Part shown: piece after piece, positions 135 to 4,772 of the stretch
How the letters are laid out: every line of letters begins with the position of its first letter
Position numbering within the stretch: position 1 is the first letter of the stretch
Assembly (NCBI RefSeq): GCF_025380365.1
Contig: NZ_JAOCQF010000006.1
Span: 1-64,000 of the forward strand
Length of the DNA stretch: 64,000 bases
Origin: Albidovulum sediminis
GTDB taxonomy: Bacteria; Pseudomonadota; Alphaproteobacteria; Rhodobacterales; Rhodobacteraceae
Reading direction: 5' to 3'
Made by a program: the position numbers and the translations under genes
The notes under the pieces: model-generated
Databases searched by the model: none
The model's input: only the letters and a program-made list of their open reading frames with translations
What the model was told of the DNA's origin: nothing

Positions 135-211
135 CGCGGGGTGGAGCAGCCCGGTAGCTCGTCAGGCTCATAACCTGAAGGCCGCAGGTTCAAATCCTGC
201 CCCCGCAACCA
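135..211 (+). tRNA. Initiator tRNA-fMet (anticodon CAT)
   Basis: A 77-nt cloverleaf with a CGCGGGG/CCCCGCA acceptor stem whose first pair is mismatched (C1-A72), the hallmark of initiator tRNAs. The anticodon CAT is at 169-171 with a GC-rich anticodon stem, the T-loop region reads GGTTCAAATCC, and CCA is encoded. It lies just after 5S rRNA, as expected at the end of an rRNA operon. Its 3' part overlaps, in antisense, the end of a serine recombinase gene, so it is the probable integration site of the adjoining element. Confidence 0.97.
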
Positions 212-1790
212 AGAACTCCGTACTGCCAGCAGACTTGGCCGGATCCGCGCAGAATGCGAGGATACCGGCCAGTCCGCCATGGATCGTTACCGTACAGAGG
301 CCCCGGGTCTCGGTCGGCCCCACGGCGATCCGTGTCACCAGCCCCCGTAGCGCCTCCATCGCCTCGGCCCGCGTCGCTTCGTCCGCCAGAAGCTCCGACA
401 GCGCGCCTACGCGGCGACGGTAGAGGTCGGGCAGGTTGGGGTGGATGGTCACCTTCGGGAATCCGGAGGTGGCGGCCCGGAGTTCGGCTTCAAGCCTGGA
501 CTTGCGCGCTTCCAGTTCCATCAGCGTGCCACGCACCGCACCGGGTGCCCCGTCGCCCGAGAGGATGAACTCCATGCAGCGCGCAATGCCGCGCTCGACC
601 TCGACTATCTGGCGGCGCTGTGCGTCTCCGGCGGTGCGGCGCTCGGTCGCCAGCCGCGCCAGTTCCCGCTCGAACTCCTCGGTGAAGGCAGCAAGTGCTG
701 CTTCGTTGCCGACGAGGAGGCGAGCAAGACCGTCGAGCACGCGGCCCTCCAGCTCCGCCACCGCTATTCCATGCGTGGCTTTGCAGGTGCCGCGGTCACG
801 CCGTGCTGCACAGTAGTAGCGGTCGCGATTGGTCGTCATCGCCCCGCCGCAGCAGGCGCAGGTGACGAGCCCGGTGAACACGCGCTTCTTCACCTGCCGC
901 TTGTTGCCTGCCCAGCCCGCGTAGCGTGCCTTCTGGCCCTGAGCCTTGGCAAAGACGTCGTCGTCGATCAGCCGCAAGGCAGGAACCTCGGTCACCACCC
1001 ACTCTTCCCGCGGATTCAGCCGCGAAACGCGCTTGCCCGTATCCGGATCCTTGGCGAAGCGCTGGCGGTTCCAGACGAGCCGCCCGACATACATCTCGTT
1101 GTTGAGGATGCCGTTTCGTCTCTGCCGGCTGCCGTGGATCGTCGAGGGGGTCCATGTGCCGCCGCGTGGCCCGGGAATCCCTTCGGCGTTGAGGCGAGCG
1201 GCGATCTGGCGCGGCGAGAGGCCGCATGTGTATTCCCTGAAGATACGCTGCACCACTGCGGCTTCCGCGGATTCGATCTCACGCTCCCCCTTCACCGGCG
1301 TGCCATCTGCCAAGAGCCGCCGCACCACGCGATAACCATAGCTGTTGCCGCCCCCTGACATCCCGGCTTCGACCCTGCCGCGCAGACCGCGCCGCGTCTT
1401 CTGTGCGAGATCCTTGAGGTAGAGAGCGTTCATCGTGCCCTTGAGCCCGATGTGCAGTTCGCTGATTTCCCCCTCGCTGAGCGTTACCAGACGCACGCCG
1501 CCGTGCGTCAGCCGCTTGAATATGCCCGCAATATCCTCCTGATCGCGGCTGAGCCGGTCCAGCGCCTCAGCCAGCACCAGGTCCACCTCGCCCGCCCGCG
1601 CCGCCGCCATGAGAGCCTGCAGCCCCGGCCGCGCCCGCATCGACCCACCGCTCACCGCGTAATCGGCATAGGTCTCCACCAGAACCCAGCCTTCCCGCGC
1701 AATCCGTTCCCGGCACACCCGCACCTGATCCTCGATCGAGGCGGCTGACTGAAGGTCAGAAGAGTAGCGGGCGTAGATGCCAACGCGCAT
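168..1790 (-). CDS. Large serine recombinase; C-terminus encoded antisense to tRNA-fMet
   Basis: Site-specific DNA recombinase of the large serine family, 540 aa. The N-terminal resolvase domain has the catalytic serine in YARYSSD (about residues 6-12) and the conserved LDRLSRD. It is followed by a recombinase domain (around GNSYGYRV), a zinc ribbon (CACCGG ... YYCAARRDRGTC), a coiled coil and a C-terminal tail. The ATG at 1790 is preferred because AAGGAG sits 8 nt upstream. The tyrosine recombinase upstream ends at 1792, so the genes are probably translationally coupled. The last 14 codons (ending AGAGFEPAAFRL) and the stop lie within the tRNA gene on the opposite strand. Family membership is clear; control of integration into tRNA-fMet is inferred from position. 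Confidence 0.93.
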   Translation of the reverse strand: MRVGIYARYSSDLQSAASIEDQVRVCRERIAREGWVLVETYADYAVSGGSMRARPGLQALMAAARAGEVDLVLAEALDRLSRDQEDIAGIFKRLTHGGVRLVTLSEGEISELHIGLKGTMNALYLKDLAQKTRRGLRGRVEAGMSGGGNSYGYRVVRRLLADGTPVKGEREIESAEAAVVQRIFREYTCGLSPRQIAARLNAEGIPGPRGGTWTPSTIHGSRQRRNGILNNEMYVGRLVWNRQRFAKDPDTGKRVSRLNPREEWVVTEVPALRLIDDDVFAKAQGQKARYAGWAGNKRQVKKRVFTGLVTCACCGGAMTTNRDRYYCAARRDRGTCKATHGIAVAELEGRVLDGLARLLVGNEAALAAFTEEFERELARLATERRTAGDAQRRQIVEVERGIARCMEFILSGDGAPGAVRGTLMELEARKSRLEAELRAATSGFPKVTIHPNLPDLYRRRVGALSELLADEATRAEAMEALRGLVTRIAVGPTETRGLCTVTIHGGLAGILAFCADPAKSAGSTEFLVAGAGFEPAAFRL

Positions 1791-1791
1791 G

Positions 1792-2952: not shown

Positions 2953-4610
2953 GGCTTCTTCTCCAGCGTCCCGGGCCCGGAGTTTGCCCTGATCTTCGCG
3001 CCGTGCTTTGCCGAAGCCTTCGGCCAGAGCTTTGTCTGCTTCCGCGCCTTGGGTGCGGGCGGCGCCTTGCGGTCATTCACGGTCTCCGCCAGCAGGCGCG
3101 TCGCGCCATCCGCCTCGAAGCCCACATAGGTCTGCCACACGGTGGAGGTATCCGTGTGGCCCAGGATGCGGCGTACCAGTTCGTAATGACCCGGGTTATT
3201 CTGCAGAAGCAGCTTTGCCGCGAGGTGGCGGAACAGGTGGGGATTGACGTCTATGCCCATGACCTTGCGGATCGTCTGGGTGATCCGCTTGCCAAGGTCA
3301 CCCGGCGCCATGGGTGCCGAGCCGTCGCGCTGGGGAAACAGCCAGCGCGTGCTGGCGGGGCACAGCACACCTGCCCGATGTGCGAGATGCGCATCGATGC
3401 GCTCGACCAGATGGGCCGGCACGGGGAAGGTAATCTCCTGATGGTTCTTCACCCGCGAGCCCGGAATCTGGACGACGACATTGCCCGGTCCCAGACGCAG
3501 CAACTCACCCTCGCAGTCGAGTTGCGTGAGATTCCGGATGCGCAGCGGGATATAGCACGCGAGTCCGACCGCCAGCGCGATCTCTGACTGAAGCGCGCGG
3601 TCGCGGGGCTTCCGGCAGGTCTGCGCCGCATCCCAGAGCTCGTCGGCCAGGGACAGGAAGTGCGACACGATCTCTGGGTCATCGAAGACCATCAGGCGTT
3701 TGCGGTTCTTGGCCGTGAGGCCGGGCGGGCGGGGCGGGATCAGCCTGTCGCAGAGATCCTTCACGGCACCGAACTCCGTCTCGCTCAGCCCCAGGTCCTT
3801 GCGCGCGGTGGCGCGCAGCGCCGCGGCGATGTTCGAGATGCCTGAGGTCACGGAGTTCCCGGTGCGTGCAAGGAACCAACGCAGACCGCGCTCAAGGGTG
3901 GCGGGCGCCATCAGCTCCTTGAGCCCGGTCAGGCTCGCGGGCGGAGTGCCAGCGCGCACCACCGCGCTGGCAAAGCGCAAGATCTGGTCACGGCGTCCCT
4001 GCACCGTGGCCGGGCGCAGGGCGCGCTTCTTGGGGCCGCGGGCGAGCGGATCGGGATGAGCCAGCCGGTGCGTCAGCGCCTCCAGTTCCGTGCCAAAGCT
4101 CGGCGGAAAGGTTGACAGGGGCAGGCTGATCAGGTCGTCCGATACCGGCGCCTCAAGGCTTTGCCCCGGCCAGCCCGCCACCTTGTCGATGGCGCGGTTC
4201 CACGCTGCCCGGGTCTTGCGCAGCGTGAGGGCGGGATCCTTGCGGATCGTGTTCACCCGCAGCGCCTCGATATAGGCGTCGAGATCGGCGGTGACCACCG
4301 ACTCTGGCGCGATGTCATTGGCGTCGAGGAACTGGACGAACCGGTCGAGCATGATGCGCAACGACGCGTCCTTGCTGGCCACGACCGCCGACCAGAGCGT
4401 ATCCCATGCGGGCGACAGCGACAGGCGCTTCTGGCGGCTCCTCGCGACAATGCCGCATTCTGCGAGCGCAGCCTTGGCATTGCTGGTGATGTTCGACCAT
4501 GTCTTGTCTGCGATGCCCATCGCCGCAGGCATGACGGCGGCGATACGCGGCTGCAGCCATAGCGGGTCTGCGGGCGCCGTTTCCGGGGCGGCGTTCAGGG
4601 CATCAGTCAA
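2949..4610 (-). CDS. Tyrosine recombinase, first gene of the trio (N-terminus interrupted)
   Basis: Integrase-family protein whose longest open stretch from a possible TTG gives 553 aa. The catalytic set looks complete: Arg in IPLRIRNLTQL, HLFRH at about residues 458-462, LGHTDTSTVWQTY with His and Tyr. No ribosome-binding site precedes the TTG at 4610. The frame stays open upstream to a TGA at 4683-4685, and beyond it, in the same frame, an ATG at 4772 has a strong AAGGAAGGA site. The native gene therefore probably began at 4772 and is interrupted at codon 30. The catalytic part could still be made by reinitiation or readthrough. The end overlaps the next recombinase by 4 bp. Confidence 0.8.
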   Translation of the reverse strand: MTDALNAAPETAPADPLWLQPRIAAVMPAAMGIADKTWSNITSNAKAALAECGIVARSRQKRLSLSPAWDTLWSAVVASKDASLRIMLDRFVQFLDANDIAPESVVTADLDAYIEALRVNTIRKDPALTLRKTRAAWNRAIDKVAGWPGQSLEAPVSDDLISLPLSTFPPSFGTELEALTHRLAHPDPLARGPKKRALRPATVQGRRDQILRFASAVVRAGTPPASLTGLKELMAPATLERGLRWFLARTGNSVTSGISNIAAALRATARKDLGLSETEFGAVKDLCDRLIPPRPPGLTAKNRKRLMVFDDPEIVSHFLSLADELWDAAQTCRKPRDRALQSEIALAVGLACYIPLRIRNLTQLDCEGELLRLGPGNVVVQIPGSRVKNHQEITFPVPAHLVERIDAHLAHRAGVLCPASTRWLFPQRDGSAPMAPGDLGKRITQTIRKVMGIDVNPHLFRHLAAKLLLQNNPGHYELVRRILGHTDTSTVWQTYVGFEADGATRLLAETVNDRKAPPAPKARKQTKLWPKASAKHGAKIRANSGPGTLEKKP

Positions 4611-4682
4611 GCGATGCAGAGCCGAGACGAGATCCCGGGCACGGACTTCCGCCAGGCTCGCATCGGTGGAGATGCGGGTGAT

Positions 4683-4772
4683 TCAATCGGCGATGGACGG
4701 AGTACCCGGGCGTACGAAGGGAGTGCGCGTGTTGTGGTGTGGGAAACGGGCTTCGGGAGGCAGCATTGACAT
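4683..4772 (-). pseudogene. Detached N-terminal 29 codons of the first tyrosine recombinase
   Basis: An ATG at 4772 with AAGGAAGGA about 9 nt upstream opens a 29-codon reading frame (starting MSMLPPEARF) that ends at TGA 4683-4685. It is in frame with the tyrosine recombinase downstream, and the 24 codons between the TGA and the TTG at 4610 contain no other stop and look protein-like (SLAEVRARDLVSALHRL). This fits a nonsense change in a formerly continuous gene of about 607 codons. A real short leader peptide is the alternative. Confidence 0.55.

Follow-up and report, generated by a model that had tools for sequence, protein, structure and literature searches.

Recombinase genes and their neighbors in the window

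The window, i.e., the whole stretch of 64,000 nucleotides of Albidovulum sediminis DNA that was analyzed, lies on a contig whose start falls inside an rRNA operon, with a tRNA gene coming after the end of the 5S rRNA. Three recombinase frames, all on the minus strand, are located between this tRNA-Met(CAT) gene and the flagellar gene fliP, and the following features were assigned:

1..63, plus strand: 3' end of a 5S rRNA gene (Rfam match of 30.9 bits, gathering score 38)
135..211, plus strand: tRNA-fMet, anticodon CAT, predicted integration target (ARAGORN tRNA-Met(CAT); Rfam tRNA)
199..211, plus strand: predicted attachment-site core, the final 13 nt of the tRNA, antisense TGGTTGCGGGGGC (from the island-end repeat of relatives, 12–23 bp)
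168..1823, minus strand: SR, large serine recombinase, 551 aa (Pfam PF00239, PF07508, PF13408; translation)
1792..2952, minus strand: TR2, tyrosine recombinase, 386 aa (R, K, HxxR and Y invariant in the alignment; AlphaFold and Foldseek to Xer recombinases)
2949..4610, minus strand: TR1, tyrosine recombinase, 553 aa encoded by the portion of the frame that is intact (Pfam PF00589; alignment)
4611..4772, minus strand: stretch that once encoded the N-terminus of TR1, interrupted in frame by TGA at 4683-4685 (coding in homologues)
5072..5148, no strand assigned: 77-bp remnant of a transposase gene of the IS481 family, in the space separating TR1 from fliP (92% to Cereibacter records labelled IS481 transposase)
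5151..5876, minus strand: fliP, first host gene past the module (Pfam FliP, E 1e-67)

The 5S rRNA match scores below the family gathering score because it is cut off at the contig end. We read the tRNA-Met(CAT) gene at 135-211 as the initiator, judging from its position behind the 5S rRNA gene and from its own sequence. In line with the earlier note, two tyrosine recombinase genes and one serine recombinase gene are present and overlap, by 4 bp (TR1/TR2) and 32 bp (TR2/SR); its placement of the end of the trio at 4772, however, requires read-through of the TGA at 4683-4685. Homologues code across these positions, so the intact TR1 frame begins late and is devoid of the conserved N-terminus; the stop may be a sequencing error. 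The statement that no other gene precedes the flagellar gene has to be amended, since the segment at 5072-5148 resembles the end of IS481-family transposase genes, with an identity of up to 92%.

With regard to the proteins, SR carries the Resolvase, Recombinase and Zn-ribbon domains of a large serine integrase according to Pfam. TR1, with a length of 524–611 aa in seven sequences, harbors a Phage_integrase domain; it had no match in phage records and seven weak matches among viral contigs. TR2 gave no Pfam match and only weak matches to Xer. Nevertheless, its R, K, HxxR and Y residues are invariant across 22 aligned sequences, that of the window included, and its AlphaFold model (mean pLDDT of 85) matches Xer-type recombinases in Foldseek. 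The relation of SR to the tRNA gene, described before as adjacency, goes beyond abutting: the final 13–14 codons and the stop of SR, as seen in the translation, are the antisense of the 3' half of the tRNA.

SR, tRNA-fMet and the islands of relatives

The order TR1-TR2-SR, strand included, was conserved in 55 of 73 TR1 loci, and in 42 of these 55 the SR end lay at tRNA-fMet or its 3' part, so that the predicted recurrence of the gene order at this tRNA was borne out. Specifically, a full tRNA-fMet was found in 27 loci, its 3' part at a contig end in six, and its 3' part followed by other DNA in nine, with neither in the remaining 13; many tRNA-side junctions are hidden by assembly breaks at rRNA operons. 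Beyond the 3' part, the next frame was integrase-like in three of the nine loci (L110, L118 and L152), two of them confirmed by Pfam. On sequence evidence from relatives, SR is very probably a large serine integrase that inserts at the 3' end of tRNA-fMet, a role carried over to the window copy from these relatives.

Both island ends were seen in five relatives, among them G016 (Defluviimonas sp. WL0002), G421, G428, L139 and L142 (Ruegeria marina). The five islands have lengths of 13.5, 25.9, 33.9, 10.95 and 11.4 kb and, in the order of these lengths, terminal repeats of 12, 13, 13, 12 and 23 bp. In all five, a short core is common to both ends, as expected for islands of serine integrases; those of G421 and G428 end on the SR side in a displaced 3' part of the tRNA and not in the tRNA gene itself. 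The left-end arms are inverse copies of the SR-side arms in G016, G421 and G428, partly so in L139, and not in L142. Of 44 arms on the SR side, 28 contain GTTCG and 15 the longer GTTCGG, and the window arm has neither. A motif of the core, 14–22 nucleotides and CGAAC, fixed only after the first matches had been seen, gave nine matches, representing eight distinct sites, in a redundant sequence set of 5.73 Mb with both strands counted; mononucleotide shuffles yielded 0.2 matches each. Six of these lie upstream of a TR1 in the correct orientation, five of them with an SR-side end too. Among the seven loci with at least about 49 kb of distal DNA read, attR was present in three (G016, G421, G428) and was not found in G430 copies a and b, W01 and the window; three more (L139, L142, L146) came from a set with up to 10 kb of upstream sequence.

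Several other candidates for island boundaries were discarded. A long attR, i.e., a second copy of the 45-nt tRNA 3' half, was sought distally and none was found; as serine islands leave just 12–23 bp, a 45-nt repeat was the wrong expectation. Such repeats mark other islands at the same tRNA, in arrays in G421, G430 and G426 and in islands of 78–79 kb in G013 and G001. As an observation in its own right, tRNA-fMet is a hot spot with island arrays in these bacteria. Also rejected as island end was the sharp edge some 2 kb upstream of TR1 at which homology stops: the DNA of L110 past this edge was matched in just four of 54 genus genomes, L110 itself and a near-copy included, and is therefore accessory, and the island ends identified later lie farther out. 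Contig C28 of G017 was discarded as a free circle, since it showed no terminal overlap of 20–399 bp. Empty tRNA-fMet/fliP junctions, suggested as a check in the earlier note, were not found among the genus genomes. Both genes share a contig in four genus members, at a distance of about 65–450 kb; for the remaining members, the two genes fell on separate contigs or a match to one of them was missing. Within the genus, the sequence downstream of tRNA-fMet was too diverged for an empty-site comparison, and comparison of the fliP-distal region gave no clear result.

Linkage and companions of the tyrosine pair

SR was found at tRNA-fMet without the TR pair in 18 clean cases among 38 family loci, leaving out a 19th, L274, which keeps a TR2-like piece cut by the contig end; G010, of the same genus, likewise has SR at tRNA-fMet without the pair. 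Conversely, the pair was found without tRNA-fMet SR in 11 loci with room for SR, and three plasmid loci (L018, L019 and L021) carry it without that SR. Between the window and L153, SR is 80% identical and TR1 and TR2 just 40%, pointing to a swap of SR. These three lines of evidence indicate separate modules that have been repeatedly joined and separated, with 10 such changes on the SR tree, six of them forced by starred branches. The refutation proposed in the earlier note, separate carriage in relatives, thus applies in part. At the same time, TR2 and SR overlap or are at most 30 bp apart in 35 of the 55 loci (more than 60 bp in 11), and patristic distances (n = 37) were correlated at 0.94 for TR1-TR2 and at 0.66–0.70 for TR-SR, values attained by none of 2000 permutations in any comparison. 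Judged by trees and gene order, TR1 and TR2 are tightly co-inherited as what appears to be a distinct cassette just upstream of the integrase, and the pair and SR are linked well above chance, though apparently separate modules. No site for TR1-TR2 action was found.

The cassette has companions. Of 78 upstream regions, 64 had an HTH gene and 28 had ORF-X, with two ORF-X copies on the opposite strand; among the ORF-X loci are a plasmid lacking SR and the tRNA-Arg locus L119, which has a tyrosine integrase. In part of the loci, the cassette is accompanied by a structured, covarying RNA, which forms a block with a sharp homology edge in 16 loci. Rfam gave no match for it, its model hit nothing in 133 sources other than the 16 loci used for training and near-copies of them, and a search of plasmid and phage records yielded one 65-bp plasmid match and no phage match. 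In viral contigs, the RNA was located upstream of phage TerL genes in six of nine cases; relaxing the viral pattern brought in three more contigs, and the RNA model matched none of them. Given this position upstream of phage terminase genes, some islands may, speculatively, be phage satellites.

Three other explanations for the trio were weighed. Independent arrival, with SR, TR1 and TR2 inserted separately and made neighbors by accumulation at a hot spot, would agree with the island arrays at tRNA-fMet and with the fact that SR and the pair can occur apart, which the earlier note had named as the mark of independent genes. However, chance neighbors would not be expected to share a constant gene order and orientation across 55 loci, with a TR2-SR gap of at most 30 bp in 35, or to have correlated trees, and we consider chance arrival hardly credible. 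A single mixed-chemistry complex, in which the tyrosine pair and SR are both required for one integration reaction, is very unlikely: the conserved order and strand and an SR-TR tree correlation exceeding all permutations speak in its favor, but SR alone at tRNA-fMet (in 18 of 38 family loci and in G010), the pair without this SR, the SR swap relative to L153 and att sites resembling those of ordinary serine integrases speak against it.

It is also possible, if rather doubtful, that the tyrosine pair is a Tn554-like transposon of its own, which repeatedly enters upstream of integrase genes, with SR merely as carrier. The pair with its HTH gene and ORF-X lies beside differing integrases, i.e., SR at tRNA-fMet and the tyrosine integrase at tRNA-Arg in L119, and also on a plasmid, and the RNA block ends sharply in its 16 loci. 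This edge may instead mark where variable cargo meets a fixed module, neither a repeat nor a target duplication was identified at the ends of the unit, and the close or overlapping TR2/SR junction in 35 of 55 loci would be difficult for a transposon end.

Interpretation and relation to known systems

For the window module, neither the HTH gene, the structured RNA, a distal att end nor cargo was found, and the core is single-copy in the window's 100-kb contig, with no second copy or attR. With TR1 broken and these parts missing, the module is probably immobile. On sequence evidence, it is in all likelihood a decayed tRNA-proximal island end, an integration-module remnant whose distal part is gone. 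Of the two readings offered before, a minimal mobile element does not agree with islands of 11–34 kb between both ends, and the integration module of a larger element, its remainder lost in this copy, is the one upheld by the five relatives. The outcome for the window itself, a broken remnant, is modest.

Our best explanation, which we hold with considerable confidence, combines this decayed island end with SR as its integrase and the TR pair as a second cassette. SR would recombine attP with attB, the latter being the tRNA-fMet 3' end. The predicted attP consists of a core identical to the final 12–13 nt of tRNA-fMet, flanked by a pair of inverted arms that read GTTCGGTxAAxG ... CCTTxACCGAAC where best conserved; after insertion, the tRNA would remain whole and a short direct repeat would bound the island. 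Because the core lies within the SR frame, the last residues of the protein would change upon integration: the tail would be read from the tRNA gene in the inserted state and from the island in the predicted circle. The second cassette would comprise TR1-TR2, usually with an excisionase-type HTH gene and in part with ORF-X and the structured RNA. As a guess held with low confidence, TR1 and TR2 would act jointly, in an Xer- or Tn554-like manner, at a separate site, where they would bring about insertion, excision or resolution of either the cassette or the whole island. A more far-reaching and improbable proposal is that the islands are alphaproteobacterial phage satellites, with the terminase-linked RNA as packaging RNA or structured packaging signal, packaging by a helper phage, anti-phage cargo, an SR tail that senses the integration state, and a tyrosine pair acting on the free or replicated form.

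The relatives thus offer a serine-integrase family apparently aimed at a tRNA gene, with predicted att sites defined well enough for testing; an integrase whose C-terminus would change upon integration, a possible built-in state sensor; and a recurrent recombinase cassette tied to a covarying RNA of phage packaging loci, which makes the satellite hypothesis testable.

RIT elements consist of three tyrosine recombinases in about 3.5 kb and occur in alpha- and beta-proteobacteria, frequently on islands (PMC3414803). The likeness drawn before lies in three adjacent, overlapping site-specific recombinase genes, and does not extend further: a serine recombinase takes the third place, the TR pair can be separated from it, the islands of five relatives measure 11–34 kb instead of a self-contained 3.5 kb, and the module has a tRNA target and island ends. 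According to the available excerpts of the same paper, Tn554-type transposons and actinobacterial relatives combine a long and a typical tyrosine recombinase side by side, sometimes with a third gene, and both are reported as required in Tn554 (PMC3414803). TR1 beside a typical TR2 may be a comparable pair, TR1 at 524–611 aa in seven sequences being shorter than the 611–828 aa given for the Tn554-type families; here, an HTH gene accompanies the pair and a serine integrase follows it. The gin element of Bacillus cereus, as described in excerpts of PMC5595907, has a serine integrase, att sites formed by inverted repeats around a short core, and two extra recombinases, girA and girB, dispensable for rearrangement under the tested conditions. 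It thus shares the serine integrase, the (here predicted) inverted-arm, short-core att sites and two further recombinases; however, all three are serine recombinases in gin, and its target is gerE instead of tRNA-fMet. In the available parts of the Islander paper of 2014, serine integrases are not known to target tRNA genes (PMC4383910), a statement neither confirmed nor contradicted in those of two later papers (PMC10083194, PMC12424338).

Among the matches listed in the open-licence PMC literature on the trio, tRNA-targeting serine integrases, packaging RNA and phage satellites, the mixed-trio module is undescribed in the excerpts available. In mycobacteriophages such as BPs, integration-dependent immunity reportedly relies on an attachment site within a coding gene, the C-terminus of the protein varying between the integrated and the free state. 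The predicted arrangement of SR would be alike in its att site inside a coding gene and its integration-dependent C-terminus; in those phages, of other hosts, the protein is a repressor, whereas here it would be the integrase itself, with antisense tRNA as its new tail.

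Genes of the window's locus and recurrence of the trio

The locus comprises the following features:

135-211: tRNA-fMet, preceded by the end of a 5S rRNA
168-4610, minus strand: TR1, TR2 and SR, read from translated frames

The presence of two tyrosine recombinases (TR1, 553 aa; TR2, 386 aa) and one large serine recombinase (SR, 551 aa), as claimed in the earlier note, was confirmed by the frames, Pfam, a TR2 alignment and an AlphaFold model. The genes overlap by 4 bp (TR1/TR2) and 32 bp (TR2/SR). Pfam assigned SR to the large serine recombinases and TR1 to the tyrosine recombinases, and TR2 of the window gave no Pfam match. 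In an alignment of 22 TR2 sequences, the R, K, HxxR and Y positions were invariant, and the AlphaFold model of TR2 matched Xer, Tn1549 and lambda-type recombinases in the PDB. In another alignment, the window's TR2 carries Q in place of the usual second H, which is present in four of five relatives.

The same gene order recurs elsewhere. A TR1 alignment, used in one scan of named genomes, found 73 TR1 loci, and in 55 of these SR lay downstream on the same strand, at a TR2-SR gap of ≤30 bp in 35 and >60 bp in 11. SR was absent from the other 18, of which 11 are informative absences; the remaining seven (L104, L107, L116, L128, L137, L138, L146) have <1.3 kb of sequence left. With regard to where the 55 SR genes end, 27 do so in a full tRNA-fMet, 6 in the 3' part of the tRNA where the contig ends, 9 in the 3' part followed by other DNA, and 13 in neither. 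Nine of these 13 have ≤245 bp after the SR match; among the four with more, the trio lies beside tRNA-Arg in L134 and beside another tRNA-Met in L159, while L103 and L165 retain the short att core (last 12-13 nt of tRNA-fMet) alone.

Hosts, as labelled, were mostly Rhodobacterales, plus Azospirillum, Hyphomicrobiales and others; some loci came from MAGs labelled Opitutaceae, Acidobacteriia and Marinimicrobia, assignments that may be binning errors. Among complete plasmids, one of Azospirillum sp. TSH58 carries, at tRNA-Met, a trio whose TR2 and SR are fragmented, and one of A. oryzae carries TR2-SR at tRNA-Met; upstream of this pair, the fetched stretch gave no TR1 match. The recombinases of Defluviimonas sp. 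WL0002 (G016, L007; same genus as the window) and of L102 are identical. In strain QY30 (G430), two TR2-SR copies (L239, L240) were 99.96% identical over 2788 bp, one at tRNA-Met and the other at a displaced tRNA 3' part, and one has lost most of TR1; we read this as a recent double insertion or an exchange between rRNA operons.

Association of SR with the tyrosine pair

A family survey of 198 genomes, including the window's (cut-offs E≤1e-60 for SR and E≤1e-25 for TR1), detected SR in 38 genomes and TR1 in 18. Outside the window, 38 of 42 SR places were fetched, the four omitted being weak matches; 10 were trios and 28 were not. By hand count, 28 of the 38 end in tRNA-fMet or its 3' part, three in another tRNA-Met and one beside tRNA-Phe, and six showed no tRNA at their end, some of them lying at a contig end. 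Nineteen of the 28 tRNA-fMet places lack the full TR pair: 18 are clean (hand count), and L274 keeps a TR2-like piece where the contig end cuts the locus. The proposal that the three genes form one unit stood only in part: order and strand are kept at 55 of 73 TR1 loci, but 18 clean solo SR genes sit at tRNA-fMet. The three relatives ending in another tRNA-Met (L291, L297, L300) have a different antisense tail (GLEPPTxxL), which we read as a target shift within the SR family; the one beside tRNA-Phe (L301) forms a long branch on the SR tree.

On that tree, built by a quick method from 79 rows (52 trio and 27 solo, including L274; five near-copies and L134 dropped), the trio/solo label changes at least 10 times, six of them forced by starred branches, compared to 22.6 in shuffles. 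Patristic distances over 37 loci (L134 excluded) correlated at 0.94 for TR1-TR2, 0.66 for TR1-SR and 0.70 for TR2-SR. The window and G016 fall in different SR clades despite sharing genus and tRNA, and therefore their modules look like separate arrivals.

The tyrosine cassette and its structured RNA

TR1 is preceded by an HTH gene in 64 of 78 upstream regions (some being too short to show it) and by ORF-X in 28 of 78 (two on the opposite strand); two ORF-X members gave no Pfam match. This cassette, with HTH and ORF-X, occurs on a Pukyongiella plasmid without SR, and in L119 it precedes a tyrosine integrase at tRNA-Arg. Sixteen aligned loci share a sharp-edged, non-coding 300-bp block, which lies ~1.5-2.4 kb upstream of TR1 in 14 of them:

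L109:7755-8059, 15 further loci and viral contigs L314-L322: structured RNA, ~300 nt, covarying, no Rfam match

Folding energies were -69 versus -26 (sd 4.5) in column-shuffled alignments, and -81 versus -32 (sd 5) on the other strand; because both strands fold far below shuffles, about equally, folding does not fix the strand. For the strand directed away from TR1, and with a structure derived from the same alignment that was tested, 18 of 63 pairs had two-sided changes, compared to 7.4 after shuffling and 1-4 after sliding. The RNA model matched 18 sources on a selected list of 88, from which five of the 73 TR1 loci are missing, every match with a TR cassette and every one a training locus or near-copy; therefore, most trio loci, the window included, have no recognisable copy. 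A further 45 sources yielded nothing beyond one 14.8-bit scrap.

In all six of the nine RNA-bearing viral contigs tested against PHROGs, a terminase large subunit gene lay downstream of the RNA on the same strand, adjoining it in L316, L319, L320 and L322 and one frame away in L315 and L317. A putative role as packaging RNA or packaging signal is possible. Viral contig L321, with ORF-X and a methyltransferase, is an island of the same kind as the trio islands.

Island ends and the window's broken copy

Displaced SR genes (SR2 of G016, L103, L165) retain just the initial 12-13 nt of antisense tRNA sequence, followed by other DNA. A search for this core in distal DNA (upstream of TR1 at 71 of 73 loci, 46 of the 73 with ≥9 kb, plus seven longer stretches) gave island left ends sharing a half-site that ends in CGAAC, and five islands with both ends known, flanked by direct repeats of 12-23 bp:

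G421: 13.5 kb
G016: 25.9 kb
G428: 33.9 kb
L139: 10.95 kb
L142 (Ruegeria marina): 11.4 kb

Islands of 10.95-33.9 kb in relatives speak against the minimal mobile element suggested earlier. The G016 island has an older, broken SR as its far flank, and the SR-side end of the G421 and G428 islands is a displaced tRNA 3' part. In G016, 19.5 kb separates the left end from the RNA and encodes a reverse transcriptase, Type III restriction-modification-like functions, UvrD helicases, an NYN protein and an AAA ATPase; the island's cargo (L080, L250) looks like an anti-phage set. Left of attR, the flanks in G421, L142 and L146 resemble, by eye, those of ten SR-free tRNA-fMet genes, which are T-rich; at least two of these ten genes carry other islands, and the likeness is weak evidence. 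An attR was seen in only three of the seven loci whose distal DNA spans ~49 kb or more, which counts against the integration model. In G421, seven 45-nt copies of the tRNA 3' half stand in tandem at tRNA-fMet over 217 kb (L230-L236, parts of G421:C1:2246001-2479670), and the trio lies at the array's far end. In two genus members (L245 in G013, L246 in G001), 48-50 bp of the tRNA-fMet 3' half are repeated at a distance of 78-79 kb from the gene; an integrase of another type presumably produced these islands.

In the window, in-frame TR1 homology runs upstream to an ATG at 4772, across a TGA at 4683-4685. No HTH gene precedes TR1, a 77-bp IS481 scrap separates it from fliP, and the att core is single on the 100,298-bp contig. 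We infer that the distal part was lost in an IS-linked event. The adjacency of fliP and tRNA-fMet looks like a rearrangement, because they lie ~65-450 kb apart in four genus members having both on one contig. The locus is ordinary in being a broken island end, and unusual in tying a tRNA-targeting serine recombinase integrase to a tyrosine pair.

The integrated SR ends in VAGxGFEPxxFRL, read from the antisense tRNA. Joining the SR end in silico to the island's own left end gave a predicted circle tail that differs from the integrated one in five of five islands (VAGARIGLDRTYAHLNLQLPLAKEDS in G016). Inverse arms are a general property of serine-integrase attP sites. The SR-side arm carries GTTCGG in 15 and GTTCG in 28 of 44 loci. 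In G016, G421 and G428, this arm and the left-end arm are inverse to each other, the same arrangement as the inverse arms described for serine-integrase attP sites in PMC5595907.
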